This document shows positions 7,329 to 60,443 of a DNA stretch of 64,000 bases, piece by piece. The DNA is taken from assembly GCA_003278535.1 (NCBI GenBank), contig QCEG01000005.1, forward strand, positions 39,628 through 103,627, given 5' to 3'. The DNA comes from Prochlorococcus sp. AG-355-N18 (GTDB taxonomy: Bacteria; Cyanobacteriota; Cyanobacteriia; PCC-6307; Cyanobiaceae). How positions within the stretch are numbered: the stretch's first letter is position 1; each line of letters opens with the position of its first letter. The translations under genes were made by a program, and so were the position numbers. The notes below the pieces were generated by a model. That model did no database searches. It saw nothing but the letters and a program-made list of their open reading frames with translations, and had not been told where the DNA came from.

Positions 7329-9314
7329 TTGATGTCATTAGATAAAAAAAATTCGATCAATAACATACTTGAAGAAAAGAGAATTTTCTCTCCCTCAAAA
7401 AAATTTGCAGAAAGCTCAAATATTAGTACTCAAGAAGAATTACTAAGTTTAAAAAAACAAGCATCAGAAAATCCTATTAAATTTTGGGAATTTTTTGCAA
7501 AATCCGAATTAGATTGGTTTGAGCCATTTCAAACTGTATTAGATAATGAAAATGCCCCCTTTTTAAAATGGTTCAAAGAAGGGAAACTCAACATTACATA
7601 CAACTGCTTAGATAGACAAATTAAGAGAGGGCTTGGAGGAAAGACTGCACTTATATGGCAAGGCGAACCGGGAGATAGCAAAAAATATACTTATGAAGAA
7701 CTTCTAAAAGAGGTATGTAAAGCAGCTAATGCATTAAAAACAATTGGTATAAAAAAAGGAGATTTGGTATGTATTTATATGCCGATGATTCCTGAGGCGA
7801 TGTTTGCGATGTTAGCTTGTGCAAGAATTGGCGCGCCTCATTCTGTTGTCTTTGGAGGATTTTCTTCAGAAGCTTTAAAAGATAGGTTAATTGATGGAAA
7901 CGCAAGATTTATTATTACTGCAGATGGTGGCTTTAGAAAAGATAAAGTGATTGAACTTAAGCAAGCAGTTGATGCGGCAATTGAAAGTGGGGCAGATAAA
8001 GTTGTTGAAAAAGTAGTTGTTGTTCAACGTACCAAAAAAATTATTTCGATGGTTGATGATAGAGATTTATGGTGGCACGAATTATTAAAAGATCAAAAAG
8101 ATCAGTGTGAACCAGAAATAATGAATAGCGAAGATAGACTTTTTATTCTTTATACTTCAGGCTCTACTGGAAAGCCCAAAGGTGTAGTTCACACTACAGG
8201 TGGTTACAATCTTTGGACCCATTTGACATTTAAATGGATTTTTGATTTGAAAGATGATGATATTTACTGGTGCACTGCAGATGTTGGTTGGATTACAGGC
8301 CATAGTTATATTGTTTATGGACCTTTATCTAATGGTGCTACAACCTTAATGTATGAGGGAGTGCCAAGACCCTCAAATTTAGGGGCTTTTTGGGAAATTG
8401 TTCAAAAATATAAGGTTTCTATTTTTTATACTGCACCAACTGCAATTAGAGCATTTATGAAGTCTGGGCGTGAAATCCCTGATAAATATAATCTTGAGAG
8501 TCTTAGACTTTTGGGCACAGTTGGAGAACCAATTAATCCTGAGGCATGGATGTGGTACAGGGATGTTATCGGTAAAAATAAATGCCCTATTGTTGATACT
8601 TGGTGGCAAACTGAGACTGGTGGTGTGATGATAAGTCCCTTGCCTGGAGTCGTTGCTACAAAGCCAGGTTCAGCTACTTTTCCTCTGCCAGGAATCGAAG
8701 TTGAAATTGTCGATAAGAATGGAGATAAGGTTAAGGAGAACGAAGGTGGATATTTAATTATTAAGAAACCATGGCCAGGAATGATGAGAACAATTCACGG
8801 AAACTCAGAGAGATATTTGGAGAGTTATTGGGAATATATTTCCTTCAAAGGAGAAAAAAATGTTTATTTTGCTGGAGATGGAGCCCGCATTGATGAAGAT
8901 GGATATATTTGGATTATGGGAAGAGTTGATGATGTCATAAGTGTTTCAGGACATCGGTTAGGAACAATGGAAATAGAATCTGCTTTGGTAAGTCATAAAT
9001 CAGTTGCAGAGTCTGCAGTCGTTGGCAAAAAAGATGATTTAAAAGGTGAAGTTATAGTTGCTTTTGTATCTTTAGAAAAAGATGTGAAAAGTTCTTCAGA
9101 ATTAGTAGAGGACTTAAAGAAACATGTTGTTAATGAAATTGGAATTATCGCAAAGCCTGAAAAGATTATAATTTCTGACTCTCTTCCGAAAACACGTAGT
9201 GGAAAAATTATGAGACGAATTTTAAGATCTTTGGCTGCTGGAGAAAAAATTAGCGGTGATATAAGTACTCTTGAAGATGGTTCTGTTTTGGAAAAGCTTA
9301 AAGAATTATCCTAA
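7329..9314 (+). CDS. acs: Acetyl-CoA synthetase
   Basis: [42 protein letters not shown]. Confidence 0.96.
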
Positions 9315-10033
9315 ATAGATTCATCAATTAAATTGGAAATTTTTTTTATAGTTTTTCTTTTGAATTCATCATCAGCCCAGTCTCCCAAAAAATTTTCTCT
9401 TAGTCCTGCGCTTGCAATTATAGTGTGCGTACCTTTTAGCATTACCCCCTTAGAATTATCTTCTTTTCTTGCTTTCAGACAAGAAAATAATTTATCTGTT
9501 TGATCTAATTCGTCTTGGTTGAATTTTATTAGGAAGTTATTTTTTTGATTATATGTTTTTTCAATTAATCGCAAAGTTCTTTCAGGACTTGGGCTAAATT
9601 CACTGTTGAATTCTAATTTTTGAGAAATTTGTTTCAATAATGGTATTGATTTGTTAGCACTAAAATTATTAAAACTAATAGATATGAATTTTTCGCAATT
9701 TCTTCCGCCATCAGGAGAAATTAAATGAAGTTTGCAGCCTAGGCTATGACCAATTCTTATTGAAGGAATTGATGCCCCTATTCTCTTGGATAAAGATATT
9801 CGGCAATTCTTAAAATCTTTCCATGCTTTGATAGCAAGTTGTTGGTGATCAAATTGTGGTGTGTATTTATATGCGTGTACTGCATAATTTTTATTAATTA
9901 AACTCTCTATGAATCTTCTATAAGTTAAATCTGGCTTAGAAGCTAAATAACTTCCACCAATAAATTCAACAATTTTTTTTGGATTTGAAGGCCAATAACA
10001 GAAATTGTTATATTGAAATTTTGTAAAAGTCAT
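9311..10033 (-). CDS. DUF1350 family conserved protein
   Basis: [36 protein letters not shown]...GHSLGCKLH alpha/beta-hydrolase-like pattern. Confidence 0.7.
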
Positions 10034-38800: not shown

Positions 38801-38866
38801 TTAATCTCTTTCAATAAGTTCAATTTTATAACCATCAGGATCCTCAACAAAGGCCAAGACAGTAGA
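38801..38866 (-). pseudogene. gloA: 3' remnant of glyoxalase I (gloA), truncated at island boundary
   Basis: Reverse translation STVLAFVEDPDGYKIELIERD* matches the C-terminus of ORF 42653..43042. Confidence 0.9.
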
Positions 38867-38933
38867 GTCTAATACACCCCTTTTGTTATAAGTAAAAACC
38901 TGTGCCATACTAGCTTTAAGTTGAAATCTAGTA

Positions 38934-40829
38934 ATGGCTAAAAGCACTGCAAAACCTTCTGTTTCAAAGAGTAAACCAATAAAATTTTCCTTGTCTTATG
39001 TTCGTGTAAGTACTAAAGATCAGTTAGAGGGTAGTGGCATAAAAAGACAAGAAAAAGCATATCAAGAATGGCTTAGAAGAAATACAGATTATGAGAATTT
39101 AGATGAATTTAAAGATTTAGGAATAAGTGGTAGAGGTAAAAACAGTACAGCAGGGGCATTAAACAAAATCATTGAAAAAGCAGAAAAAGGTCAAATACCT
39201 CATAGCACTTGTTTAGTTGTTGAATCTATGTCGAGGTTATCAAGAGAGATTCCTAAAAATTCTTTAGAACTATTACTTAGAATTTTTAAATCTGGTTTAA
39301 CTATTGCTTTTACTGAATACGGAGGAAATGTAATTGATGGGAAAGGAAATGACCCTGCATGGTTTCAACTTTTAGGAGGTATGTTTCAAGCCTCTATTGA
39401 ATGGCAAACGAAACAAGAAAGAATAGTAGGTTCTTTTGATGATGTTCAAGAAAATCTAGAAAATGGCAAGCTAGATCATTTTAAAGGTAGAGAAAAAGGT
39501 ACAAAACATGGCTTCTATTCCTTTTGGCTTAATTTTGATGAGAAAAGAAAACAATTTATTGTTTTAGAAGAAGAAGCAGAAATAGTAAGAAAAATATTTA
39601 CTATGGCTGAAACTATGGAGGTAAAAAAGATTGAACGAGCATTAAAAGATCAAGGCATTAAGAATCCAATTGGATTTAAAGCTGAATGGTTTACTAGAAA
39701 TGTTATTAGAAAATGCATTTTAGAAAATAGAGTTGTTTTAGGAGAAAAAGTATTTAGAGGTAAAACTTATTTTGGTATTTATCCAGCAATTATTACTCCA
39801 GAGCAATACAACCTAGTACAAGAAGCCAAGCAAAAAAGGATTACTAATAAGGTTCCTCAATCTCCACATCATAAAGTAGTAAATTTATTTCAAGGTGCAA
39901 TATTTTGCTCAGAATGTGGCGGTCGTATAGAAGCTGTTGGTGTTAAAAGATTAGTCTGCAAAGAATTTAATGTTAAAAATAGCCCAAAGATAGAAGCTGA
40001 ATATTTTAGCTTGCATTGTTCTGTCGGAAGAAATCAAACTTCTAATATTTGTTCAGTTACTAATGCTGCTGCTTATAAACAATTACACAATGGAATAGAT
40101 AATGAACTAGCAATTCTCGAACAAATCCAGAATTTTAGATGGGCTGAGTTTTTTACAGATGAAAGGCATGAAAATGACCTACAAGTTGAAAAGGATAAAA
40201 GAACTAGATATTTAAATGAAAGGAATAAAGTATCTAATCAGATTGAAAAATATAAAACAGCCGAAGAACAATATTTTGAGCAAGGAGAAATATTACCTCA
40301 AAATCTTAGAGATAAAAAAAATCAAGCTAAAGAAAAATATGATGAATTAAATGAAAAATATAATAGGGCTAATTTAGATATTCAAAATTTAAAAAGAAAA
40401 AAAACTGGTAAAAGTTTAGAAGAAGATATTAATAAAAGAGTTAAAAACTTTATTAATAAAGGTAGGTTTGATAATCAAGAAAGATTTAAATTTAATATGT
40501 GGCTTAAAGAAATGGGGATAGCAATTCAAGTAGATATATATAAACAAAAGCAAACCAGAAAAACACCTCATAAAAATTATGCGTTCCATGTTGGAATTGG
40601 TATGTTTGATTTTATAACTGGCAAATATAGAGGATTAAATCAAAGTATTGATGATTTAGTTGCTTTAGGTCTTGATGAAAAACAAGTAAAAGAATCAGAA
40701 GCGAAAATTTATGAAAACTATAAAAAACAAAGTTTAGAAGTTGGACATGACATTAGATTTCCTCAACCAAAAAAAGAAGTAAAACCAATTACTAAAGAAG
40801 AATTTTGGAAACGACTTGAGGCAAGCTAA
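38934..40829 (+). CDS. Large serine recombinase (resolvase + recombinase + zinc ribbon domains)
   Basis: SLSYVRVSTKDQLEGSGIKRQ; VVESMSRLSREIP; recombinase-domain IKNPIGFKAEWFTRNVIRKCILENRVVLGEKVFRGK; CSECGGRIE zinc ribbon. Confidence 0.93.
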   Translation: MAKSTAKPSVSKSKPIKFSLSYVRVSTKDQLEGSGIKRQEKAYQEWLRRNTDYENLDEFKDLGISGRGKNSTAGALNKIIEKAEKGQIPHSTCLVVESMSRLSREIPKNSLELLLRIFKSGLTIAFTEYGGNVIDGKGNDPAWFQLLGGMFQASIEWQTKQERIVGSFDDVQENLENGKLDHFKGREKGTKHGFYSFWLNFDEKRKQFIVLEEEAEIVRKIFTMAETMEVKKIERALKDQGIKNPIGFKAEWFTRNVIRKCILENRVVLGEKVFRGKTYFGIYPAIITPEQYNLVQEAKQKRITNKVPQSPHHKVVNLFQGAIFCSECGGRIEAVGVKRLVCKEFNVKNSPKIEAEYFSLHCSVGRNQTSNICSVTNAAAYKQLHNGIDNELAILEQIQNFRWAEFFTDERHENDLQVEKDKRTRYLNERNKVSNQIEKYKTAEEQYFEQGEILPQNLRDKKNQAKEKYDELNEKYNRANLDIQNLKRKKTGKSLEEDINKRVKNFINKGRFDNQERFKFNMWLKEMGIAIQVDIYKQKQTRKTPHKNYAFHVGIGMFDFITGKYRGLNQSIDDLVALGLDEKQVKESEAKIYENYKKQSLEVGHDIRFPQPKKEVKPITKEEFWKRLEAS

Positions 40830-41584
40830 TGAGCACTTATTTAGAAGAGAGAATAAATTGGTATGACGAAAATTATCGTTTAGGAAATGCCCTGATTACA
40901 GATAAACATTTTGACCAACTAGAGAAAAATCTTTTAAGGGTAGACCCTAATTGTGATTATTTCACTAATAAAAAAGCTCTTCCACTTCCTTCACTTCCTA
41001 AAGATCAGATAGGGGAATTTATAGAAGGTTTATTGCCTGATACTCGATTATTAATAGAACCAAAAATTGATGGCTGTGCGATTGCGCTTCAATATAGAGA
41101 TGGCCTTTTAGAAAAGGCTATTAGTAGAAAAGGAACAGATTGCACTACTAAGATTGGAGCAATTCCAGATGTTCCATTTAATATAAAAATCAAAGGTTTA
41201 TTCCAAGTTAGAGGAGAACTTTTTAACCCTTCAGAATATGAAAGACCAACTTATTCTCAAAGACAGGTGGGCGGATATCTTAGGGCTGCTGCTAGTAAAA
41301 GCGATCACCTTAGCTTTTGTAGTTTTCAGATAATTAATGGAAGATTAAACCAACATGATTCGCTTAAATATTTAAAAAAATTAGGTTTTACGATTCCAGA
41401 ATATGAGAGTCTAAATTTCACTTCTCAAGTTGAGATGTATAGAAAGCAATGGTCAGATAAAAAGCTATTTAATGACTATCCGACAGATGGAATTGTAGTG
41501 AAAATAAATTCTAGAAAATTACAGTTAATTAGAGAAAAATCTTATGGAGTTTATCCCCATTGGGCAATGGCAATTAAGTATTAG
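40829..41584 (+). CDS. Stand-alone NAD+-dependent DNA ligase-like adenylation protein (Ia + nucleotidyltransferase only)
   Basis: EPKIDG (motif I KxDG), QVRGELFNPSEYE, TDGIVVKINS (motif IV), HWAMAIKY (motif V), stop right after motif V; no OB/HhH/BRCT. Confidence 0.82.
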   Translation: MSTYLEERINWYDENYRLGNALITDKHFDQLEKNLLRVDPNCDYFTNKKALPLPSLPKDQIGEFIEGLLPDTRLLIEPKIDGCAIALQYRDGLLEKAISRKGTDCTTKIGAIPDVPFNIKIKGLFQVRGELFNPSEYERPTYSQRQVGGYLRAAASKSDHLSFCSFQIINGRLNQHDSLKYLKKLGFTIPEYESLNFTSQVEMYRKQWSDKKLFNDYPTDGIVVKINSRKLQLIREKSYGVYPHWAMAIKY

Positions 41585-41590
41585 TTAGTA

Positions 41591-41622
41591 ATTGACATTC
41601 GATCTAAAATAAGGGGCAATTA
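41591..41622 (+). repeat. Dispersed island repeat copy 1
   Basis: ATTGACATTCGATCTAAAATAAGGGGCAATTA. Confidence 0.85.
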
Positions 41623-41690
41623 ACAATATTTATTTTCAGGAATTATTTTTTTTGCTAGTAATAGAAAGCCAATAAAAATTAAAAAATAAA

Positions 41691-41963: not shown

Positions 41964-41969
41964 ATTGAG

Positions 41970-42001
41970 ATTGACAGTAGATCTAAAATAAGAAGCAATT
42001 A
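41970..42001 (+). repeat. Dispersed island repeat copy 2
   Basis: ATTGACAGTAGATCTAAAATAAGAAGCAATTA. Confidence 0.8.
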
Positions 42002-42013
42002 GCTCCTTTTTTT

Positions 42014-42529: not shown

Positions 42530-42625
42530 CCCATTAAAATTACCAGCTGTAAGAAATTATGCAAATTAATTAAAGAAAAATCTTACGGAACTTATGTGTT
42601 TTGGCAAATGGCAATAAAATTTTAG
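42530..42625 (+). pseudogene. Remnant of a mini-ligase C-terminal tail (copy 2)
   Basis: In-frame PIKITSCKKLCKLIKEKSYGTYVFWQMAIKF*, compare VVKINSRKLQLIREKSYGVYPHWAMAIKY*. Confidence 0.8.
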
Positions 42626-42652: not shown

Positions 42653-43042
42653 ATGCGTATTCTTCACACAATGTTGAGGGTAGGAGATTTAGATAAATCT
42701 ATAGATTTCTATGTAAATAGATTAGGAATGAATTTAATTAGAAAAAAAGATTATCCGCATGGAGAATTTACTTTAGCTTTTGTTGGCTATGGTTCTGAAA
42801 AAGAAAATGCAGTAATTGAGCTAACTCATAATTGGGGCAAAAAATCAGAAGATTATGAGCTTGGAGATAAATACGGACATATTGCTATTGGTGTAAAAGA
42901 TATTCATGGTATTTGTCAGGGGCTTGAAGATAACGGCTGCAAAATTACGACAAAGCCAAAAACCATGAAGAACAGTACGACAGTTTTAGCGTTTGTTGAA
43001 GATCCTGACGGATATAAAATCGAGCTAATAGAAAGAGACTAG
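42653..43042 (+). CDS. gloA: Glyoxalase I (lactoylglutathione lyase), full length
   Basis: MRILHTMLRVGDLDKSIDFYVNRLGMNLIRKKDYP...ELTHNWG...FVEDPDGYKIELIERD. Confidence 0.93.
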   Translation: MRILHTMLRVGDLDKSIDFYVNRLGMNLIRKKDYPHGEFTLAFVGYGSEKENAVIELTHNWGKKSEDYELGDKYGHIAIGVKDIHGICQGLEDNGCKITTKPKTMKNSTTVLAFVEDPDGYKIELIERD

Positions 43043-43060
43043 GTTCTTCTTTAAGTATTT

Positions 43061-43144
43061 AAATTAAATTTAAGAAAATTTCAATTAATTAGAGAAAAAT
43101 CTTATGAAAGTTATCCGCATCATCAGATGGCAGTTAAGTATTAG
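43061..43144 (+). pseudogene. Remnant of a mini-ligase C-terminal tail (copy 3)
   Basis: In-frame KLNLRKFQLIREKSYESYPHHQMAVKY*. Confidence 0.82.
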
Positions 43145-43150
43145 TTAGTA

Positions 43151-43182
43151 ATTGACAGTCGATCTAAAATAAGGGGCAATTA
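43151..43182 (+). repeat. Dispersed island repeat copy 3
   Basis: ATTGACAGTCGATCTAAAATAAGGGGCAATTA. Confidence 0.87.
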
Positions 43183-43194
43183 GCTTCTTTTTTA

Positions 43195-45006: not shown

Positions 45007-45267
45007 CTACTTTGAACGCCTAATAATATTATTTCTTCTAACTTGAATATTTGCTTTTATCTTTTCTGCAAGAGTTGGAAGATTTGGTGGTTCTTGCATT
45101 AAATAAACTTTTTTCTTTCCAAACTTATTTGGATATTCATGCCAGATGTAATCGTTTAATACTCCTCTATCTAATAATCTGTATATCGTTTTGGTGGATT
45201 TGTAACCTAGAAGTTTTGCTGTTTCTGTGATCGTATAGGCTTCGATCTCAAGTAACTTTGCTTTCAT
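45007..45267 (-). CDS. MerR/HTH_17-like excisionase-type DNA-binding protein
   Basis: YTITETAKLLGYKSTKTIYRLLDRGVLNDYIW helix-turn-helix. Confidence 0.65.
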   Translation of the reverse strand: MKAKLLEIEAYTITETAKLLGYKSTKTIYRLLDRGVLNDYIWHEYPNKFGKKKVYLMQEPPNLPTLAEKIKANIQVRRNNIIRRSK

Positions 45268-46390: not shown

Positions 46391-46904
46391 TCAATTATTA
46401 GCTGTATATGGATTAAGACCAGAAGAACTTAGGTGGCTAAGAATTATTGATGGAATTAATGGAAAAGAATTACACAGTATTTATCAAAAATCTATGGGTG
46501 GACTTAGAGGAGATAAAACGAAACCACGAAAATTGCAACCATTATTTGTTAAAGATGCAGATGGTAATCCTATTGATTGGAAGTTACAGCAAAGAATAGA
46601 AATATCAGAAGAATTGCCTCCTCTTGGTTCTGATGGTCAAGGAGGCTTGGCATTGTATACGCATATAAAAAGAAGAAAGTTATATCAACTAATAAAAGAA
46701 GAAGCATCAAAGATAGGACAAGAAGCTGTTCCTTATAGCTTTAGACATAGATATGCAAAGGCTTCTAATGCTAGTGGTTTTCCTATCGCAAATATTGCCC
46801 AGGCAATGGGTCACACTCCAGAAGTTCATTTGCAAAACTATTCAAGATTTACTCTAGATAAAACAACGGATCTATATGCAGAGGCAAATAAGCAAATAGC
46901 ATAA
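46360..46904 (+). pseudogene. C-terminal catalytic fragment of a tyrosine recombinase/integrase
   Basis: QWQFAYQLLAVYGLRPEELRWL...PYSFRHRYAKASN...IAQAMGHTPEVHLQNYSRF. Confidence 0.85.
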
Positions 46905-46912
46905 TGGTATTG

Positions 46913-46944
46913 ATTGACAGTCGATCTAAAATAAGGGGCAATTA
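46913..46944 (+). repeat. Dispersed island repeat copy 4
   Basis: ATTGACAGTCGATCTAAAATAAGGGGCAATTA. Confidence 0.87.
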
Positions 46945-46956
46945 GCTACTTTTTTT

Positions 46957-48050: not shown

Positions 48051-51000
48051 ATGGAGATAATTGATGATTTTAATATTGAGATTATTGATCATTACCAAAA
48101 TCCTTATGGTGAAATATATTTAAATAATATTGATAATTCCTCTGGAGAAATTAATTTAGACCATGATTTCAATTTAAGTCATATTTCTATTGATGATTTT
48201 AATACCTCTAATCAATCAACCATAATTAATTATCTTAATAGAGAAATAATAAACTTAGAATTAGAATATGCTAATAACTTTATTTTAGGTGATAAAAACG
48301 ACAATAAATTTATTTCTAATCTTAATTCACCCTACAAGAATTTTTATTACGCATCTGATAATAACGATACATATATTGGATTAAAAAATAAACTTGAGGT
48401 TTTAAATTATGATACGAATAATATTGATTTAGTCTCTGGGCTAATTGTTACAAATTCTAGTGATGATGTTTTTCTACAAGAAGATAATAATCTTTTTAAA
48501 GAATTATTAGATAATGATGATAATTTCTTGATTTTTAAGGACAATTTTAATTTAGATGATTTTGATAATTTAAAAGATTTTGATATTATCAGGCTAACCG
48601 AAAAAGAAGATCAAGCGATATTAAAGGGCAATAATGAGAAATTAATTATAGATTTCAATAAGGGAGATGACACTTTAGTTTTACACTCTTACACCCCTGA
48701 ATTGACTGCGGAAAATTATATAAACTTAGAAAAATTGGTATGGCATCCTTTAAATACTTCAGAAAATAGGGAAGATTTAAGTATTGAATTTGATGTCTTT
48801 GAAGTTTATGAAGGACAAGAAAAAGTAATCCCTATTGGAGATTATATAACTAATGCCCAAACTGAAAAAGAAAAAAATTGGGAAATTAATTACTTTCAGA
48901 ATGAAGAATTGGGTAAAAAGGAAATTCCAAATTGGATAACTATTGATTCTGTTGAACCAAGCGTATCTTTAATTGGAGCAGGTAATATTGTTATTTCATT
49001 CGAATTAGAAAAAGATGAAGAGAATGATCAATTAACTTGGATTAAAATATACGCCAATGATTTAAGAGATAATGCTCCTGGACTTCTAGGTCTTGAATTA
49101 GATTTAAATATGAATAATTCAATTTTCTCTATAGATGAAGATTTATATACTTTAACAAATATTTTTGATTCTAATAAATTGCCATTATTTAGGAATAAAG
49201 GATCAATAAAAAAAAGTCCAGTTGAAGATAATAAGCTATATATATATGGTCTTGGAGCTGCTTCACTTCCAAAAGCTAATCAAGGTGAAATCCTTGGTCT
49301 AAGTGATTACTCTAATGACAATACTCTATTTGCAAAAATTCCTTTGAGGAATTTTGACGATGAAATTCATTCAAAAAAAGATTTGGATTTGAATATTGAA
49401 ATAAAATTAATGCCCCAGGTGGGAGGCGAAATTATTGATTTAGATAAGGTATTAATTCTCGATAATAAGGCATCATTTGTAGATGTACTAAGGTTAAATC
49501 CTGATGATAAAGATATTAAATCCTATGCTTTTTCTTTGGAGGAAAAAAATCATAATGAGGTGAAGAATATTATATTTTCTTTAAGAGAAATAAATGATAA
49601 TCCAAAATTTGTTAATAGAGACAATGAGATTATCTTAAATGCTACACAAGACTCCCCCTTCTTATACAATTTATCTGATAAGTTTTTTGATGTAGATGAT
49701 ATAGATCTAGATTATGAAATTATAAATGCGCCAAATTGGATAGTCTTGGATGAATTAACTAATTCTCTAATCGGTACTCCTAAAAATATTAATGTTGGCA
49801 ATAATAATTTAATACTTAAAGTTTCAGATGGAAGGGGAGGAGAAATTGAAAAAGAAATAAAAATATTAGTTCAAAATATTAATGATTCCCCTTTCCTAAA
49901 TAAAGAAATACTTTTGCCAGAAATATTTCAAGATCAGAATTTTGATTTTCTTATACCCCAAAATTCTTTTGATGATCCAGATTTTTTAATCTCTAGTGAA
50001 GAGAAATTAGATTATTCAATACTAGATAATAATGGTACTTTTTTAGAAAGTGATTTTATTACATTTAACGAGGAAGAGAATATACTGAAATTTAGTCCAA
50101 CCCAAATTAATATAGGGTCTCATGAATTTAGGTTGAGAGCTACAGATAAAGATGGAAAGTATGCAGAGCAACTTATTACACTTAATATTAAAAACAAAAA
50201 TGACGCGCCCGTTTTTACAAAATCGTTTGAAACTTTTAAATCTTTTCAAACTAATTCATTAGATCTTAATTTAGTTTCTGAAGAAGAAAGAAAAAATTTA
50301 ATTTTTATTGATTCAAAAACTTCATTAGATCTTAACTCTTGGGTTAACGATGTTGACAAAGTTTTTGATATTAATGAATCTTTAACTTTTCATTTAGAAA
50401 TCATGGATAATGAAGGTCAAGTTTTTGAGATTAATAATAACAATGATGAAAAATATAATTGGATAAGTTTTAGTAAGAATATATTAGAAATTAATGCCAC
50501 AGAAAATAATATTGGTAGTCACTTTATAAGATTTAGTGCTTCTGACTCTTCAAATGAAACTATCACAAGTTTATTTAACATAAATGTTAGACATAAAAAC
50601 AGGGCACCAATAATCAATGAAAACTTTTTATTAGATGATATTTTTAATATAAAAGGTAAGGGATTACTCAATTCTACAGTTTCTAATAACTTTATACAGG
50701 ATGATTCATCCTATTCAAAAGTTCTATTGGTTTCGTTAGAAGAAGAATCTGAAATAAACTTTAAATTGCCTAAATCCTTGTTCCTTGATCCTGATCTTTT
50801 ATTAGATGAGAATGAAAAATTATCAATCGAACTTATAGGATCTGAAGAGTTATTTAATAATGATTCAAAAGAATTAAATGTTTTTACTTTTGATGAAGAT
50901 AATTTAAGTATATCTGGTTCAACTGTAGGTCTTGCAATTGATAAATCTAATGGTGCAGCAATATGGAAAAATAAGTTAATAGCTGAAGATAATTATGGTA

Positions 51001-54000
51001 AATCTACAAGTATAGATTTGATTTTTTCTCTTCAACGAACTGCATTGAAACCATCTGTAGAAATCTTAAATGAGATTAATGATTTTGAAGAAGGGACCAT
51101 CAAAACATTAAATGAATTTATCAATATAAATAATGTTCCACGGACTGGCGATCGGTTATTTATAGAAATTTCACAAGTTGATACCAACCCATATAAATTA
51201 GATCTTTTTTCAGATAATATTTTTATAGAGGAAGCTTATGTTAATAATAAACCAGTCTGGAAAATTAATGGTAATTGGAATAATATAGAGAATTTGCTCA
51301 ATAATCTTAAATTAAAAACTTCTAATAATTTTGGTTTTGGGGATTTTAAATTAGAAGTCAAAGCTTATAGTGAACTTGGATTGACATCACTTAGGTCCGA
51401 GGTTTCAAATGCAATATTTGATATTTATATCAATCCAAAGGTAGATGCACCAGTATGGATTGATAATACAAATGATGATTTTCTTTTAGAAGATTTTAAT
51501 TTTTCTTCATTAGGAGATGTTTTTAAAGCAGAATTAATTGATTATAATGAAAAACTTAGCTATAGAATTTCTTTTGATAATGATTTAGACCTTGAATTTT
51601 CTAATATATTCGGAGAAGAATTAGGACTTAAGATTGAAAATAGTTTTATATTTAATGAAAATGAATGGCAAGATCTAATTATAAGAAATAAATCTGAAAC
51701 AATAAATTTAATAGATTTAAAAATAGAAGCATTATCTTATTCAAATGTCCTTAGGAAATTTAAAGCTAGCGACTATAGATTAATAAAATGGAAGCCTATT
51801 CCTTTAATTGAAATAGATCCAAATATTAATGTAATTACGGAAATTACAAAATCTAAGTCAGGAGAAATTATTAATCTTGATCTTGATTTAAATATTCCTC
51901 CAATCGCTAAAAGTTCGTTACTAGCTTTGAAATTAAAAGAGGGTAGTGAGTTGATATTAAATAATGAAGTTATAAAGCCAGAAAATAAAATTGATTCAGA
52001 TGAATATTATTATTTAAATTTTAATCAAAATAGCCAAATTGTTAGACTTCAAATAAGGAATCCAGATATTTTTAATGGTCTTTATGAAGGGGAAATAAGC
52101 ATATATTCTTCGGTTAAAGATGATTTAAATAAATCTTATTTAGAACATTCTATTTTTGAGGACGTAAAAAATAAATTAACTACTAAAAATGAAAAAAATA
52201 TATTTAGTTGGGAAGTTTCTCAAGTGGCATTTAGTCCAGAATTTAATTCAGATAATTTAGAAAAATTTGGATATGATCCAATTACTGGAAAGTTAAATTT
52301 AGAAATCAGAAGAGGAAGTAGTCTTTCAGGGCAAAGGAATCCTAGAGAGGGTTTGATACTAGGAATACAAAATATACCTAATGGGTATCAATTAGTTAAT
52401 AAAGTTGATGATAAATATATTGTATTTGGAGCTACTGATGAATTTGGTACTTTTACTATCATAAATATTCCACCCCTACCTTTTGATACTGAACAAAACC
52501 AAATAGCAAATTTTAATTTAATAAATGAAGGTAATTTGTTTCTTATACCCAATGATAAAAAAGTAAGTCCTCTAAATAATCATAAATTAAAATTCTTATT
52601 ATCTTCAAGAATTATAGATAATTCTATTGGTGATACTTCATCTGAAGTGGTATCTGAAGAATTATATTTGAATTCATCAAATACTTTACCAGTATTAAAT
52701 GAAGATAGATTTGTTGATCCTCTTATTATTGATTTCAATAATGATGGTATTCAATTCTTAGATATAAACGATTTAGAAAATAATATAAGATTCAACATGA
52801 TACCAACAAAAGGTAACTATAAAACTTCTTGGATAACTAACACTGATGCTAATCCATTTGATAACGCTTTTTTAGCACTTAATGATACTAAAAATGATGA
52901 TGGCGATATAAAGATTCTTTCTATAAATGAATTATTTTCTGAATATTTTAAATCAGAAAATATAACAAGGAATTATCTATCTGGTACAGATGCATTGTTA
53001 AGTTTAGATGTTAATAATGACAAAATCATAGATCATCTTGATGATTCATGGAGTGAAATTTTGTTATGGTTCGATAATGGTGATGGTATCTCTCAAAAGG
53101 AAGAGTTATTAAATGTAGAAAACTTTCTTTCAAAAATTGATCTTAATACTAAAGAAAATTTATCTGTACAACCTTCATGGTCTTCTTCAAATATTTTGTT
53201 AAGTCAATCAAATGCTTATTCAAAATCTCCAAATGAAAATGTTTATAAAATATATGATGTTGGATTAGAAAATTATAGTGGAGATTTCTTGAATGAAAAA
53301 ATTGACATTGAATTATTATCAAAAAATGAAGGACAAAATGAATTTTCTCAAAATAATAACTTAATTACTAATGAGAATAATGATCAGGCCTTTCTTAAGA
53401 TCATTTCTCCATTAAGTTCCTCTTGGATTGAAGAGGGAATTGATTCTTTAACTCTAATTAGATTATCAGGATTGCCAAATGAGATTACTCTCCCATTAGG
53501 ATTAAAAGATTCTATTGGCGATTGGGTATTTACCTGGGAAGACTATAAAAATAATGATTATCAACTTAATTTAATAGCTAACGATTATTGGAGTGGAAAT
53601 TTTCCTTTGAATGTTCTAGTAAGCCAAATTCAGGCCGATGGAAGCTTAAGAAGTTCTATTTCTAAAACAATAAATGTTGAGATAACTCCTGTAGCTAATA
53701 AACCTTATTTAAATTCAAAAAATATAATAGCAAAAGAAGATGAATTATTTTCTATTCAAGATTTGATTTCATCTTACGGTTTAAGAGATAATGATGGGTC
53801 AGAAAAATTAGTTTTTGAATTAACTGATTTACCCCAAGGTACAAAAATATTTTATAAGGAAGGATTAGAAGAAATTAAATCAAATGAAAATGGCGTTTTT
53901 GTATTTGATAGTGATGAGATAAATAATATTGGTATTCAACCTGCCGAAAACTTTTCGGGAATTCTTCAATTTGCTATAAAATTAATTGCTATTGAAAATG

Positions 54001-57000
54001 GAAATTTATCTGAAGCAGAAATAACTAAAAATGTTCAAGTAAATATAGATGCCATTCCAGATAAACCCAAAGATATTATTTTTGTAGATCAAACAAATAA
54101 AAATGGATTAATTCAAAATCAAAGTATTAGACTTCTCGAAATAATTAATCCTATATCTTCTAATAATTTTGAAGATAACGACGGCTCTGAAGAGAAATTA
54201 ATAGAAATTGCTATAGATGATAGTTTGATTTTGGGAAACAGTATTAATGATTCATGGAACCCAATCTTAAATAATAATTCTGATGGTATATCTAAATATT
54301 TATTTAAATTTGAAGATCTAGAAAATCTAATTTTGATTGATAATGGTATTGATGCAATTAATAAAATTGATTTTGAAGCAAGTTTAATTTCAAAAGAGAA
54401 ATCTAATGGAAAATCTAATAGAGGAAATATTTCTAAAATTTCAATAAATTTTCATAGAAATGCAAAAGATCCTTTTTTTAAAAATATCGAATTAATAAAT
54501 TTAAATGAGGATTTTGATTTTTATAATCTTAGTAATTTTGTAGATATTGAACCTTATCTAGACGATTCAATCGAATTTGTTATAGATAATTTAAATTCAA
54601 ACTTGAATATTTTTGATTTAGATAAAAACATAATTGAAAGAAATGAAAATAATGAGATTATTTTAAATGATAGTTTAGATAATTTCTTTATAAAATCTAT
54701 TCCAAATATTTCAGGAAACTTCAGCTTTAACATTAGGTCTATTGCTATACCTCCTGGTTTGGGATTATCTAAAGAGTCTTCAAGAAAAAAACTTGATTTA
54801 TCAATAAATCCGATAGCAGATATCCCAATTATTAATTTTGAAAAAAAAGATGATTTTCATAACATAGAATCAAATGGCTGGTTTGATTTGGGAAAATTAA
54901 ATCTAAATATAAATTCAAATGATAATGATAATTCTGAAAATTATTTTTTGAAAATTGGCTACTTTAATGAAAAAGGTCAAGTAAATAATCTTCCTGATTC
55001 TTTTAGGCTAAATGTTGACTTAACAAAAAATAATGAAGGTTATTATGAAATACCTGAAGAGCTTTTAAATGATTTAAATTTATATTTAGGAATCATTCCT
55101 GAAAATATAGAATTAGCCTTAATTCCAATCTCTACTGATGATAATAGTAGCGTAGAAGGAGAAAGAGTTTTACTGAAAATTTCAAGTAATGAAGTTTTAA
55201 AATTTCCTTTATTAAATATTGCTTTTAATCCTAATTTTGATGAAGATACAAGAGTGCCATTATTAAAAGAAAATGGAGGCCCTATAGAAGCAAATCTAGT
55301 TTCATCAGCTGGCAGTCAAACCTTAGAAATAGAGTTCAGCGAGATCCCTGCTAATGCAAAAATTCAAAAAAGAGTTTTGGATGGAGATGAAACAAACTGG
55401 ATCACACTTTCTGATCAATTATCTTCATTAATTATTCCTTATGAGGAAGCTAAGGATCTATTTTTCCAACCTCCCAAGGATCATACGGGAAATATTGAAA
55501 TTACTGTTAGAGCATTAAGTTTTGATTCTGCCAGAAATAGTAAGTCATCTAATCCAAAAAAAGTTAATTTTAATTTTAATCCTATAAATGATGCACCTTT
55601 CGTTATTGATGCATCTGATTTAGATAAAGTTCTAGAAAACTATTACAAAGAATGGGATCTCCTTAAAATATTTGAAGATGTCGATAATAATAACTCGGAA
55701 ATTGAGATAAAATCTATAAACCAAATAATTGAAAATGAAAATCGTGAATTACCACAATGGTTAAAAATAAGTAATGAGGGTTTTTTATCTGGGATCCCCT
55801 TAAATCAAGATGTTGGATTTTATGAATTTTATATAACAGCTAATGATCCTTCAGGACTAGAATCTTCAGTAAATATAAATTTAGAAGTAGGCAATACTAA
55901 TTCATCTCCATTTTTAACGAACTATATCCCAAAATCTTGGACGCTTAATAGTGATGATAATGGAGAATTTATTTTTAAAACGGTTGACTTAAATGATGAA
56001 TTAATACTTAATCCAGTATTGTTTTTTGATGATGATGATTTTCTTCATAATGAAGAAAAACATATTTATTCAATAAGCACTAATTTGGTTGATTGGGATG
56101 AAAATATTTCTGACCTTGCCAAATTAAGAGATGGGCAATTAATAATTAAACCAACTACTAAATCAAAAATAGGCGATCAAATTTTTTATTTAAAGGCTTC
56201 TGATATTAATGGAACTTCAGTGTTGCAAAAAATTGCCTTATTTGTAAATGATATAAATGAACCACCTGTTGTTATAAAAGAAGGCGCAAATCTTGTTTCA
56301 CAGAATAGATGGCAAGAAGAGATCTTTATTAAAGAAGACGAAGATTTTAATTTTGATTTAAATAATCTTTTTGTTGATAATGATCAAAGTGATGTTCTCG
56401 CTTTAATAAATCCAAGCAATTTTCCTTCTTGGCTTAAATTTAATCTGGCAAAGAATAATTATGGAGGAACCTTGGAAGGCGTTCCAAAAAATAATGATAT
56501 TGGAGCTTATAAATTAATTTGGCAAGCTATTGATCTTAGGGGACAAAAATCTATATATGAACTCATTATTAATGTTGAAAATACTAATGATTCGCCTTCA
56601 TTAAAAATCAATCCTGATTATTCTAATTTTGGTGAAATTATTAATGGCATCCCTTCTTTATTAGAAGGAGAATATACATCACTAGATCTTAGTAAGATTT
56701 TTAGTGACGATGATTTAATTCATGGAGATAATTTGAATTATGAAATAATTGAGATATCTAAAGATGATAATGTAATTGATAACCAACAAGAATGGCTTGA
56801 AATCGTTTATAGATCAACTACCCCTAAATCTCCTGAGGGAAAACTCTATATTGAACCAGTTTTCTATAAATATGATGATTCTTTAAATTTAATAAGGATA
56901 GAAAATAACGAATTAGCATCACTTCAGAATGGAACTGAATTAGTAGTTTCCATTCAATTAATTGATAATAGAAATATTTTAGAAAATGGAGTTTTAGGAA

Positions 57001-60000
57001 TTGATTTAGATATCATTATTGGGGAATCCCTAGAACTAATTAAGGAATCGGCTTCCTTAACAAATAAATTACCACTATTTAATAGTATTCTTGAATCAAA
57101 TAACTCTATTAGAATAGAGGCTGGAGCACTTCCTGAAATTGGCCAAGGAGATTATTTAGGAATTGATGAATTTGATGAAATTATAAGTTTTAAAACTAGA
57201 CTTAAAAATTCTCAGGAAAATATATTTTTAGGAATTAGCCAAGGTAAAGGTATAAATAGAGATGGAATTACTGGAAGAAATCAGGAAATATTTACTGATG
57301 AAAATAGTGTATTTTATTCTTATTCCAGTAGAGATGGTGCTGACTTACATATTATGGCACCTAAAAATAATGATGTTGGTAAATATAATTTTAAAATCAA
57401 TGCTATAGATAGTTCAGGATCAGCAGAAATAGCATTTATACCCTTTGAGATTTTAAATAAAAATGATAAGCCTTTTGTAAATAAGAATACTGAAAAATTC
57501 TTAAAGGATTTATTTGACGAAGAATATTTTGAAAATTTTAATTTCAATACTGGACCATTATCTTTATTTTCTGATGATGACTTAATTCATAATAGTGATA
57601 ATCTTACATTTCAAATTATTCAAGGAGATATAAATAATAAGATAAATAATGATTTGTATGCTGAAAATATATTAAATATTGAGAAAACTGATAATAAAAT
57701 TTCAAATTTATCTTTTAAAGTACCCTTAGGTTTAACTAATGATGTAAGTCAAGAGTTTAAATTAAAGGCAATAGATTCAGAGGGAGAGGAGGTAGAGACT
57801 GATTGGTTTAATCTTTTTTTCAAGCCAAAAGCTGATTTAACTAATATTACTGGAGTTAATGATAATGAAATCATTGATCTCTTATCTCTAGGTATCCTTC
57901 TAAATAAAAATATGTCTATAGATTTGAGTAGAAATCTTGGCATTAACTCTCTTGATCCAAATGATATTTTAGGAGATAAAATATTCTTAAATATTCAAGT
58001 AGGAGATCAAGAAGCATATCTTAAAAACAATGTTGGTGATAATCCAATAATAGATAATGGAAAAATAAATGAAATTGGGGAAAAGCAATTTAGAATTGAT
58101 CTTAATAATCTCTCCGAAATCTCAGGTAATCCCTTAGGAAATATTTCCGGTCTTGAGTTAATAGTGTCCCCTAATAAATTTGAAGAAAAACCTTCACAAC
58201 TTGAAAATGTATATTCTATAAATAATGAGAATGAGCCTGTTAAAACTGGAATAGCTATTGATATTTGGACTGAAACAGAAGTTAATTCTATAGAAACTAA
58301 ATATCCAAGTGTCTCATCAAATGTTTCAACAATATGGATCCCTATAGATAATAATCAGGCAGAATTCTTACCATCAAGGCCTATCAATATTGATGAAACT
58401 TTTTTTGAAATTGATAGCAATTATATTTTGGATATGAATGAATATTTTTATGATCCGGACCAAGATGAGACTATAGGTTGGAAACTTAATCTACCAAGAA
58501 AAATCAGAGATTTGATTTTTATAGAGAATGAAAGTGGTAAAGTTTTATTTACTGAAAAAGTTAAATCATTTGAGGATTTGCCATTAGGAATTCATAAAAT
58601 TATTTGCGAGCGGAAAGATAGTTCTCATTCTTTTGGTCAAAAATCAGGAATGTCTCGCGGAGTTATAAGACTGGCATTTAGATCAAATAAAAGTGAAAAA
58701 ATAATAAAGGGTATAGACCTCTTAAGGGAAGCTGATACTTCTTCTCTCGAAGCGATTGTGAAAAATCAAAAAGAAAGTTTGAGTGAAGCCGAATCAAATG
58801 TTCTGGAAATTTTAGATAAATTGAAATTAAAAAATGAAAATGAAAAACTTTCTTTTATCGAGAAAATTAGTATTGGAAAGGTAGCTTTGCTAGAAACTAC
58901 TGAAGATCAAAAAGTAATTAAGCTTGATTCTACAAACTCTTCAGGTGCTTTATTTTTAGAATCTTCCACCAGTAATACTTCAGAGGAAATGGATTTAAAA
59001 ATAAATAATATTTATAAATCCCCAAATATTAATATGCCTCTGGGCGAGATTGATTTTTCATTAGATACAAATTCCGCAGAATCTTCAATTGTCTTTATTG
59101 ATGTACTTGATTTGGAAACCAATATTAATTCCATTGTTAAAACTAATGTATTTGACGAGCCTTCATTATTTCAATCAACCCAATTAACATATGAGGAATC
59201 AGTTGATGGGTCATTGCAAGAATGGTTGGATTCTTTGGATTTTAATTTAAATTATTATGCATTACCAAATTCTGGAATGAATATTGAATTAGAGAGTTTG
59301 AAAATTAATATGAATGATACCCTCTCAGAAAAACTTTCATCTATAGGTTTTTCCGAGGATCATCTGCCCTATATTGATGGTTCATCATATTTATTAGATA
59401 CAGATAATGATGGTTTGGTTGATAAAATTGGACTTCTATTAATAGATCAGGGTTATTTTGATTTGAATAGAGATATAGGTTTTATTAGAGATCCAATAAT
59501 TCCAATCCTTTTTGAAGTAATTGAAACACCTGAAACTAGTCAAAATATTGGTAACGAAACTATAGAAGCAAGTAGTTCTATAATCCCTCAAGATTTAAGT
59601 CTTTATAATAATTACAATATCAATAATTTATATCAAAATTCTTCAGTGATAGAAGATATATCTGGAGAAATATTAAACAAAAATAATTTTAGCTATATCA
59701 GTAATTCCCAAATTAATAAAGAAGCAGAAAATATTAAGTTAAAAGTCGATGAAACTAATTTTATTTTCGATAATAGTTCTGTTTTTAAAAAACTGAAAAA
59801 ATTAAGTAAGCTTTTATCTAATAGTTTTGATTTAGCTAAAGATTTTGCATCAAGACTTGTTGATTCACCTTTAGAAAGTTTCTTGTTGATAATGTTGGGT
59901 GGTATATCTTCCGAGAGAATTTTAACTAAATCTATAGATACATTAACTAAAGATAGAAATCTAAAAATAAAAAGGCGAAATGAACTTTTCCAAGGTAGAT

Positions 60001-60443
60001 GGATTTACCCCACAAGAGATAGTAGATTCTTAGCAATTGAAATGTTTAATTCAAAAATAAAAATTTTGAATATCAACGATATGGATGAATTTGTAGATAA
60101 ATATTCTGTTATTCCTGGAATAGATCATGAAGGGAAATCCTTGCTTAGTGAAATTCTTCATGAAGTTATTAATCCAGGTATTTTTATAAAGGAAATATCA
60201 ATATTGTTGAAAAAATTATCTCACGGTGAACAAATTGATATAAATTGGAATCAATGGATTAATAAATATTTTTTAGATGATAAGTTAAAGGGAAATTTAG
60301 GATCTAAATCCAAAGAAAAAATAAGAGATTTAAAATCAATCTTATCTAAAGCTGACAAAGTAAATGTTTCAATGACAGATGTTTTGATGTATGCGCAATT
60401 TATTGACGTTGCAAGAGAATTGAAAATAGATTTAAATATATAA
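48051..60443 (+). CDS. Giant (4130 aa) secreted adhesin with repeated cadherin-/dystroglycan-like Ig folds and RTX-linker-type Ca-binding segments
   Basis: Repeated ...FDVDDIDLDYEIINAPNWIVLDELTNSLIGTPKNINVGNNNLILKVSDGRGGE...; PLIIDFNNDGIQFLDI...LDVNNDKIIDHLDDSWSEILLWFDNGDGISQKEEL. Confidence 0.85.
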   Translation: MEIIDDFNIEIIDHYQNPYGEIYLNNIDNSSGEINLDHDFNLSHISIDDFNTSNQSTIINYLNREIINLELEYANNFILGDKNDNKFISNLNSPYKNFYYASDNNDTYIGLKNKLEVLNYDTNNIDLVSGLIVTNSSDDVFLQEDNNLFKELLDNDDNFLIFKDNFNLDDFDNLKDFDIIRLTEKEDQAILKGNNEKLIIDFNKGDDTLVLHSYTPELTAENYINLEKLVWHPLNTSENREDLSIEFDVFEVYEGQEKVIPIGDYITNAQTEKEKNWEINYFQNEELGKKEIPNWITIDSVEPSVSLIGAGNIVISFELEKDEENDQLTWIKIYANDLRDNAPGLLGLELDLNMNNSIFSIDEDLYTLTNIFDSNKLPLFRNKGSIKKSPVEDNKLYIYGLGAASLPKANQGEILGLSDYSNDNTLFAKIPLRNFDDEIHSKKDLDLNIEIKLMPQVGGEIIDLDKVLILDNKASFVDVLRLNPDDKDIKSYAFSLEEKNHNEVKNIIFSLREINDNPKFVNRDNEIILNATQDSPFLYNLSDKFFDVDDIDLDYEIINAPNWIVLDELTNSLIGTPKNINVGNNNLILKVSDGRGGEIEKEIKILVQNINDSPFLNKEILLPEIFQDQNFDFLIPQNSFDDPDFLISSEEKLDYSILDNNGTFLESDFITFNEEENILKFSPTQINIGSHEFRLRATDKDGKYAEQLITLNIKNKNDAPVFTKSFETFKSFQTNSLDLNLVSEEERKNLIFIDSKTSLDLNSWVNDVDKVFDINESLTFHLEIMDNEGQVFEINNNNDEKYNWISFSKNILEINATENNIGSHFIRFSASDSSNETITSLFNINVRHKNRAPIINENFLLDDIFNIKGKGLLNSTVSNNFIQDDSSYSKVLLVSLEEESEINFKLPKSLFLDPDLLLDENEKLSIELIGSEELFNNDSKELNVFTFDEDNLSISGSTVGLAIDKSNGAAIWKNKLIAEDNYGKSTSIDLIFSLQRTALKPSVEILNEINDFEEGTIKTLNEFININNVPRTGDRLFIEISQVDTNPYKLDLFSDNIFIEEAYVNNKPVWKINGNWNNIENLLNNLKLKTSNNFGFGDFKLEVKAYSELGLTSLRSEVSNAIFDIYINPKVDAPVWIDNTNDDFLLEDFNFSSLGDVFKAELIDYNEKLSYRISFDNDLDLEFSNIFGEELGLKIENSFIFNENEWQDLIIRNKSETINLIDLKIEALSYSNVLRKFKASDYRLIKWKPIPLIEIDPNINVITEITKSKSGEIINLDLDLNIPPIAKSSLLALKLKEGSELILNNEVIKPENKIDSDEYYYLNFNQNSQIVRLQIRNPDIFNGLYEGEISIYSSVKDDLNKSYLEHSIFEDVKNKLTTKNEKNIFSWEVSQVAFSPEFNSDNLEKFGYDPITGKLNLEIRRGSSLSGQRNPREGLILGIQNIPNGYQLVNKVDDKYIVFGATDEFGTFTIINIPPLPFDTEQNQIANFNLINEGNLFLIPNDKKVSPLNNHKLKFLLSSRIIDNSIGDTSSEVVSEELYLNSSNTLPVLNEDRFVDPLIIDFNNDGIQFLDINDLENNIRFNMIPTKGNYKTSWITNTDANPFDNAFLALNDTKNDDGDIKILSINELFSEYFKSENITRNYLSGTDALLSLDVNNDKIIDHLDDSWSEILLWFDNGDGISQKEELLNVENFLSKIDLNTKENLSVQPSWSSSNILLSQSNAYSKSPNENVYKIYDVGLENYSGDFLNEKIDIELLSKNEGQNEFSQNNNLITNENNDQAFLKIISPLSSSWIEEGIDSLTLIRLSGLPNEITLPLGLKDSIGDWVFTWEDYKNNDYQLNLIANDYWSGNFPLNVLVSQIQADGSLRSSISKTINVEITPVANKPYLNSKNIIAKEDELFSIQDLISSYGLRDNDGSEKLVFELTDLPQGTKIFYKEGLEEIKSNENGVFVFDSDEINNIGIQPAENFSGILQFAIKLIAIENGNLSEAEITKNVQVNIDAIPDKPKDIIFVDQTNKNGLIQNQSIRLLEIINPISSNNFEDNDGSEEKLIEIAIDDSLILGNSINDSWNPILNNNSDGISKYLFKFEDLENLILIDNGIDAINKIDFEASLISKEKSNGKSNRGNISKISINFHRNAKDPFFKNIELINLNEDFDFYNLSNFVDIEPYLDDSIEFVIDNLNSNLNIFDLDKNIIERNENNEIILNDSLDNFFIKSIPNISGNFSFNIRSIAIPPGLGLSKESSRKKLDLSINPIADIPIINFEKKDDFHNIESNGWFDLGKLNLNINSNDNDNSENYFLKIGYFNEKGQVNNLPDSFRLNVDLTKNNEGYYEIPEELLNDLNLYLGIIPENIELALIPISTDDNSSVEGERVLLKISSNEVLKFPLLNIAFNPNFDEDTRVPLLKENGGPIEANLVSSAGSQTLEIEFSEIPANAKIQKRVLDGDETNWITLSDQLSSLIIPYEEAKDLFFQPPKDHTGNIEITVRALSFDSARNSKSSNPKKVNFNFNPINDAPFVIDASDLDKVLENYYKEWDLLKIFEDVDNNNSEIEIKSINQIIENENRELPQWLKISNEGFLSGIPLNQDVGFYEFYITANDPSGLESSVNINLEVGNTNSSPFLTNYIPKSWTLNSDDNGEFIFKTVDLNDELILNPVLFFDDDDFLHNEEKHIYSISTNLVDWDENISDLAKLRDGQLIIKPTTKSKIGDQIFYLKASDINGTSVLQKIALFVNDINEPPVVIKEGANLVSQNRWQEEIFIKEDEDFNFDLNNLFVDNDQSDVLALINPSNFPSWLKFNLAKNNYGGTLEGVPKNNDIGAYKLIWQAIDLRGQKSIYELIINVENTNDSPSLKINPDYSNFGEIINGIPSLLEGEYTSLDLSKIFSDDDLIHGDNLNYEIIEISKDDNVIDNQQEWLEIVYRSTTPKSPEGKLYIEPVFYKYDDSLNLIRIENNELASLQNGTELVVSIQLIDNRNILENGVLGIDLDIIIGESLELIKESASLTNKLPLFNSILESNNSIRIEAGALPEIGQGDYLGIDEFDEIISFKTRLKNSQENIFLGISQGKGINRDGITGRNQEIFTDENSVFYSYSSRDGADLHIMAPKNNDVGKYNFKINAIDSSGSAEIAFIPFEILNKNDKPFVNKNTEKFLKDLFDEEYFENFNFNTGPLSLFSDDDLIHNSDNLTFQIIQGDINNKINNDLYAENILNIEKTDNKISNLSFKVPLGLTNDVSQEFKLKAIDSEGEEVETDWFNLFFKPKADLTNITGVNDNEIIDLLSLGILLNKNMSIDLSRNLGINSLDPNDILGDKIFLNIQVGDQEAYLKNNVGDNPIIDNGKINEIGEKQFRIDLNNLSEISGNPLGNISGLELIVSPNKFEEKPSQLENVYSINNENEPVKTGIAIDIWTETEVNSIETKYPSVSSNVSTIWIPIDNNQAEFLPSRPINIDETFFEIDSNYILDMNEYFYDPDQDETIGWKLNLPRKIRDLIFIENESGKVLFTEKVKSFEDLPLGIHKIICERKDSSHSFGQKSGMSRGVIRLAFRSNKSEKIIKGIDLLREADTSSLEAIVKNQKESLSEAESNVLEILDKLKLKNENEKLSFIEKISIGKVALLETTEDQKVIKLDSTNSSGALFLESSTSNTSEEMDLKINNIYKSPNINMPLGEIDFSLDTNSAESSIVFIDVLDLETNINSIVKTNVFDEPSLFQSTQLTYEESVDGSLQEWLDSLDFNLNYYALPNSGMNIELESLKINMNDTLSEKLSSIGFSEDHLPYIDGSSYLLDTDNDGLVDKIGLLLIDQGYFDLNRDIGFIRDPIIPILFEVIETPETSQNIGNETIEASSSIIPQDLSLYNNYNINNLYQNSSVIEDISGEILNKNNFSYISNSQINKEAENIKLKVDETNFIFDNSSVFKKLKKLSKLLSNSFDLAKDFASRLVDSPLESFLLIMLGGISSERILTKSIDTLTKDRNLKIKRRNELFQGRWIYPTRDSRFLAIEMFNSKIKILNINDMDEFVDKYSVIPGIDHEGKSLLSEILHEVINPGIFIKEISILLKKLSHGEQIDINWNQWINKYFLDDKLKGNLGSKSKEKIRDLKSILSKADKVNVSMTDVLMYAQFIDVARELKIDLNI

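Follow-up and report, generated by a model that had tools for sequence, protein, structure and literature searches.

Why would a site-specific recombinase gene run directly into a gene for one piece of a DNA ligase? The question is raised by two genes in the window, a 64,000-nucleotide stretch of the Prochlorococcus sp. AG-355-N18 genome, whose assembly comprises 1.66 Mb in 49 contigs and is 93% complete:

38934..40829, + strand: large serine recombinase (LSR), 631 aa (PF00239, PF07508, phrog_95)
40829..41584, + strand: "lig", a stand-alone LigA-type adenylation protein, 251 aa (PF01653, LigA matches in the PDB)

The ORF list places both genes at exactly the coordinates given in an earlier note on this DNA, which had proposed that the recombinase is translationally coupled to lig. 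The junction, GGCAAGCTAATGAGCAC, bears this out: the TAA stop of the recombinase (40827-40829) and the ATG of lig have one base in common (TAATG). The recombinase has an N-terminal Resolvase domain (2.7e-14) followed by a Recombinase domain (7e-11), as is characteristic of LSRs, and it matches a PHROG integrase family at 1.4e-53. Its dN/dS, measured against the LSR at locus L063, is 0.26.

Domain composition and conservation of lig

The lig protein matches DNA_ligase_aden (PF01653) at 5.7e-21 over profile positions 43-250 of 253, and the Pfam search of the ORF returned no further domain. Its nearest solved structures by sequence are LigA adenylation domains (9.9e-11). The same domains are the best PDB matches (3.5e-8) of its AF2 model, so that the structural comparison proposed in the earlier note holds as to the fold, on a weak model (pLDDT 60). 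The NAD+-ligase Ia and nucleotidyltransferase motifs are present as that note described them: a short Ia region in which Y16, D25 and D29 are kept, then KIDG (K79-G82), VRGEL, DGIVVKI and, at the C-terminal end, WAMAIKY*. An Arg stands at the position that we take to be that of E. coli H23. The ORF stops at motif V and is missing the OB, zinc, HhH and BRCT parts, in agreement with its description as a ligase stripped down to the adenylation domain.

In all integrase-coupled copies aligned, K79, D81, G82, R100, E130, D220, K225 and K250 are kept together with Y16, D25 and D29; in the HTH-coupled lig proteins of a high-GC genus, Q replaces K225. The dN/dS of lig against its closest relative is 0.12, and most pairs tested range from 0.03 to 0.27. 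These values and the retained catalytic residues uphold the view that the conserved motifs speak against random decay. Judged by its sequence, the integrase-coupled lig is under purifying selection and is probably active as an adenylation protein.

Conservation of the recombinase-lig overlap

LSRs of this kind are rare, occurring in 6 of the 121 genomes of the genus, four of them near full length. All four near-full-length relatives overlap the start of a lig gene by 4 or 1 bp, and identity among these LSRs is as low as 46-48%. One LSR-coupled lig has a broken frame (genome G031), and a fifth, shortened LSR (L149) ends 12 bp before lig. The nearest relatives of the window lig (85-90% identical) sit behind tyrosine recombinases, likewise with overlaps of 4 or 1 bp, and the R, K, H, R and Y residues of these recombinases are kept. 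The overlap is 4 bp (ATGA) or 1 bp (TAATG) in all cases of an intact recombinase except one, and the overlapping recombinases belong to three LSR families (one pair with the 12-bp gap) and several tyrosine recombinase families.

In another genus, a tyrosine recombinase overlaps lig by 4 bp and the pair adjoins a phage major head gene (L253). At two loci (L251, L252) a tRNA-like sequence precedes lig, with a divergent tyrosine recombinase beside it, and in a third, distant and high-GC genus (L256, L257, L259) an HTH ORF overlaps lig. Thus, the recombinase-lig synteny predicted from this window is conserved in all four LSR relatives, but the tie to serine recombinases did not hold, as tyrosine recombinases and an HTH ORF take the same place. 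Absence of linkage and loss of catalytic residues, which the earlier note had named as grounds for abandoning the pairing, were both checked; linkage is complete (4/4) and the residues are kept.

A lig gene is missing beside several related tyrosine recombinases, and lig is therefore dispensable for at least some elements. Among the best 30 loci with mobile recombinases, a sample biased toward lig-coupled ones, five have a full lig and four an N-terminal remnant.

Reassortment of recombinase and lig

Over all coupled pairs, the identity between recombinases is uncorrelated with that between their lig partners (Pearson 0.06). For example, L141 and L142 have lig genes that are 99% identical behind recombinases that are 38% identical, and at L147 and L160 the recombinases are 94% identical and the lig genes 65%. 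On the lig tree the four LSR-coupled proteins occupy four different positions, which needs four separate origins; therefore, the coupling has been made or remade repeatedly. We read repeated coupling with the junction kept as selection for the arrangement; the chief alternative is homologous exchange by way of lig.

The element and its attachment site

The left junction of the LSR element was located by base comparison with both ends of a related element of ~8.4 kb at locus L217 and with intact glyoxalase genes. The L217 element encodes an LSR, lig, a complete second glyoxalase gene, an HTH protein, a capsid with protease and an AAA protein. The features flanking the gene pair in the window are:

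38802..38863, − strand: 62-bp 3' remnant of the chromosomal glyoxalase-family gene, on the host side of the left junction
38864..38880 (approximate), no strand: attachment junction at the left end of the LSR element (host side ...CCAAGACAGTAGA, element side ...CTAATACACCCC)
41590..41631, + strand: ~45-bp dispersed repeat, copy 1, directly after the lig stop, ending in an intrinsic-terminator-like hairpin
41969-42012, 43149-43193 and 46911-46955: other copies of the ~45-bp repeat
42533..42622, + strand: second lig copy, decayed 3' end (codons 224-251, 57%; tblastn)
42653..43042, + strand: complete glyoxalase-family gene (PF00903, 3.1e-25), its protein 99% identical to the extra copy in the L217 element
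43055..43141, + strand: third lig copy, decayed 3' end (codons 223-251, 69%; tblastn)
45007..45267, − strand: HTH_17 (AlpA/excisionase-like) ORF (PF12728, 1.2e-4), with a similar ORF in the same position at L217 and L218
45454..46200, − strand: P4-type phage/plasmid primase, C-terminal fragment
46494..46904, + strand: tyrosine recombinase of the lig-coupled kind, C-terminal fragment, 51% to that of L052

The 62-bp remnant matches the 3' end of the intact glyoxalase gene in L057 at 88.7%, and the truncated copy in L217 lacks this piece. The LSR target lies inside this gene, about 60 bp from the stop; L057 has the site empty, L220 has it decayed, and at L217 the related element occupies it. The window junction has the opposite orientation with respect to the glyoxalase gene. 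The L217 element ends read ..TTCTACTGT / AATACACCCC.. (also given as TTCTACTGT / AATACACC) and ..GATCGGCTACTGT / CTTAGC.., and CTACTGT is common to both, the short core shared by attL and attR in LSR elements. In the window the left end was found and the right end was not. Since the attachment site is inside the glyoxalase gene, lig is not the target of the LSR, and this candidate was ruled out.

Further decayed lig ends lie among cargo genes at L055 (5342-5407) and L046 (9494-9550). Scattered ends of this kind would be a sign of repeated module turnover in one island. The ~45-bp repeat, TGATTGACAGTCGATCTAAAATAAGGGGCAATTAGCTCCTTTTTTT, consists of two hairpins, a small one and a terminator-like one. 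It lies between short island genes, often by lig or a recombinase, and is also found at L138, L142, L149, L053, L055, L218 and L221. It could not be established as the attachment site of the integrases, as it follows lig, precedes lig or is absent depending on the locus. The repeat may correspond to PRE1, an island repeat reportedly described by Coleman et al. (2006). Elsewhere in the window, a single 4130-aa ORF occupies a low-GC stretch (48051-60443), and neither a known RNA (Rfam) nor a tRNA was found in the window.

The founding paper on tycheposons is reportedly that of Hackl et al. in Cell in 2023. As described in the sections consulted of two papers that treat these elements and further picocyanobacterial integrases (PMC10187409, PMC10872708), tycheposons are Prochlorococcus islands with tyrosine recombinases, tRNA sites, and primase-like and capsid genes. 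The lig-bearing elements are of a similar kind and differ in having LSRs as well and an adenylation protein overlapped by the integrase; instead of a tyrosine recombinase and a tRNA site, the element in the window uses an LSR and a glyoxalase gene. The replication and capsid genes of tycheposons have counterparts in the related L217 element (capsid with protease, AAA protein, HTH), and the window itself carries only the primase fragment. The same sections of PMC10187409 and PMC10872708 make no mention of a ligase-like integrase partner; the founding tycheposon paper and the PNAS 2022 paper on marine satellites fell outside this search. In its combination of Resolvase and Recombinase domains, its insertion into a protein gene and the short core common to its ends, the element is like those of large serine integrases. 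To our knowledge, a lig-like accessory gene is new to LSR elements, and we know of no LSR directionality factor that is ligase-like.

Stand-alone lig proteins and full-length LigA

Like LigA, its best PDB match by sequence, lig has an Ia-like region, KxDG, and motifs III, IV and V with their catalytic residues. It differs in length (251 aa versus about 690, with Ia and the nucleotidyltransferase domain shortened), in ending before the OB, zinc, HhH and BRCT parts, and in being coupled to integrases. In the tree, the stand-alone proteins form one clade apart from LigA with support of 100/100. The adenylation domain occurs in 115 of the 121 genomes of the genus, mostly as ORFs near 249-262 aa. 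This separate clade and the genus-wide stand-alone form rule out that lig is a sporadic truncation of a host LigA.

The genome of the window contains four stand-alone adenylation ORFs; no complete LigA was found in it and PF03120, the LigA OB domain, is absent. Within the genus the OB domain is present in 5 of the 121 genomes, all five incomplete, and in none of the 41 that are 90% complete or more. A later sample of the family added one genus genome with a complete LigA (G334). Contamination as the source of the full LigA in these few genomes was ruled out, as the gene is syntenic with that of other genera. Outside the genus, nearly every genome sampled from the family has a full LigA, and stand-alone copies are present as well in three of the other genera.

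Because copies of lig without a recombinase are nearly universal across the genus (the commonest is 249 aa long and preceded by a 68-aa ORF), lig may have a role outside mobile elements, whether original or acquired. In genus g32, a stand-alone pair is encoded ~4 kb apart in opposite orientation (L262 in G151, 4379-5011 and 8878-9564), at a position fixed in most genomes sampled of that genus. Unlike the integrase-coupled copies, this vertical pair has lost Ia and several catalytic residues, and it is possibly domesticated and non-adenylating. Two "DNA ligase" genes are listed among the clade-specific segments of LLI (PMC6102989); these may be the g32 pair.

Possible function of lig

The explanation that we prefer, tentatively, is that the two genes form an integration module of a tycheposon-like, satellite-like element, in which lig is an accessory or regulatory NAD+-dependent adenylyltransferase and not a ligase. 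The first gene would supply the integrase and the second a minimal NAD+-dependent adenylyltransferase, made in a fixed ratio to it through translational coupling. By analogy with the chemistry of LigA, lig would bind NAD+, form lysyl-AMP on K79 and release NMN. Because it is paired equally with serine and tyrosine integrases, it would act on something common to both and outside strand exchange itself, which is the weakest step of the argument. It would most likely be an NAD+-responsive accessory factor or regulator of integration and excision that works by a change of state or by donating AMP to a DNA end or a protein. Such a role is the most economical one because two unrelated integrase classes rejoin DNA unaided.

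The earlier note had suggested that lig assists strand sealing after serine-recombinase breaks. This idea was not supported: serine and tyrosine recombinases rejoin strands themselves, lig has no OB domain, and the LigA OB domain is absent from all 41 near-complete genomes. Ligases need this domain to engage DNA (PMC12133292), and ligation by lig is unlikely because the domain is missing and no partner was found. A partner in trans is what a T5-like two-part NAD+ ligase would require, with lig as the adenylation subunit and the complete enzyme sealing element DNA after entry, replication or excision. Subunit A of such ligases (phrog_3359; PR1 heterodimer 9hu3) is likewise free-standing and of similar make-up. 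Moreover, lig is similar over its full length to two phage families, phrog_3869 and phrog_3359; tblastn matches it to the "NAD-dependent DNA ligase subunit A" of T5-like phages, and the fold of the pLDDT 60 model resembles that of the PR1 phage ligase, a heterodimer (9hu3 and 9i5i). However, identity to subunit A is about 25% and the gene neighborhood differs. The T5-like enzyme also has a subunit B (OB, DNA-binding), of which none was found in the element or the host: beyond the missing PF03120, the scanned genes of the L217 element include no ligase domain and no conserved partner lies downstream of lig. We consider a two-part ligase unlikely; together with the passive homology stretch discussed next, it is the chief rival of the accessory role. 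Among annotated phages, only remote ligases with less than 60% identity were found.

It is also improbable, in our view, that lig has no role in recombination and is either a stretch of homology common to the islands, through which integrases are exchanged, or a hitch-hiker. The reassortment breakpoints at the lig start, the several lig copies per genome and the common decayed remnants would fit such a role, but the exact stop/start overlap is kept across many unrelated recombinases, the active site is kept with a low dN/dS, and in three genera lig accompanies an integrase or an HTH ORF. We give little credence to an NAD+-consuming or anti-phage effector carried beside the integrase. NAD+ is widely used in phage defence, and lig is located in satellite-like elements with capsid genes. 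Against this, no PADLOC model matched lig, which ruled it out as a defence gene, and a single-turnover adenylation domain uses little NAD+ unless the AMP is passed on. Least credible of all is that the 5' end of lig is an integration target and the adjacency only records insertion, as with dusA integrases (PMC4482086). The recombinases do end exactly at the conserved lig start, and at some loci the first 15-59 lig codons alone remain, but the remnant ends vary in position with no single core and, for the LSR only, both element ends map into the glyoxalase gene.

If lig is an accessory or regulatory adenylyltransferase, a broader and more doubtful possibility is that it represents a general NAD+-dependent factor of site-specific recombination, one that adenylates itself, serves unrelated serine and tyrosine integrases, and ties mobility to the NAD+ state or to adenylation of element DNA or protein. 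We know of no case in which a mobile element is controlled via NAD+-dependent adenylation. In the photosynthetic organism that outnumbers all others, mobile-element integrases appear to have acquired a helper from the catalytic domain of an essential DNA-joining enzyme, and the pairing of this helper with mechanistically unrelated integrases makes a control step common to element movement a testable claim.

Our results further suggest that it is misleading to annotate these ORFs of high-light Prochlorococcus as NAD+-dependent DNA ligases, because most of these genomes are without a complete LigA. The LigA slot was compared between a 140-aa gene and DedA/ValS (relatives L305, L047 and L048); the ValS locus is missing from the assembly of the window's genome. 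In three high-light Prochlorococcus genomes (G015, G022 and G041; loci L303, L304 and L306), the slot holds a 443-aa ATP-dependent ligase that matches Pmar-Lig (PDB 6RAU) at 1e-241.
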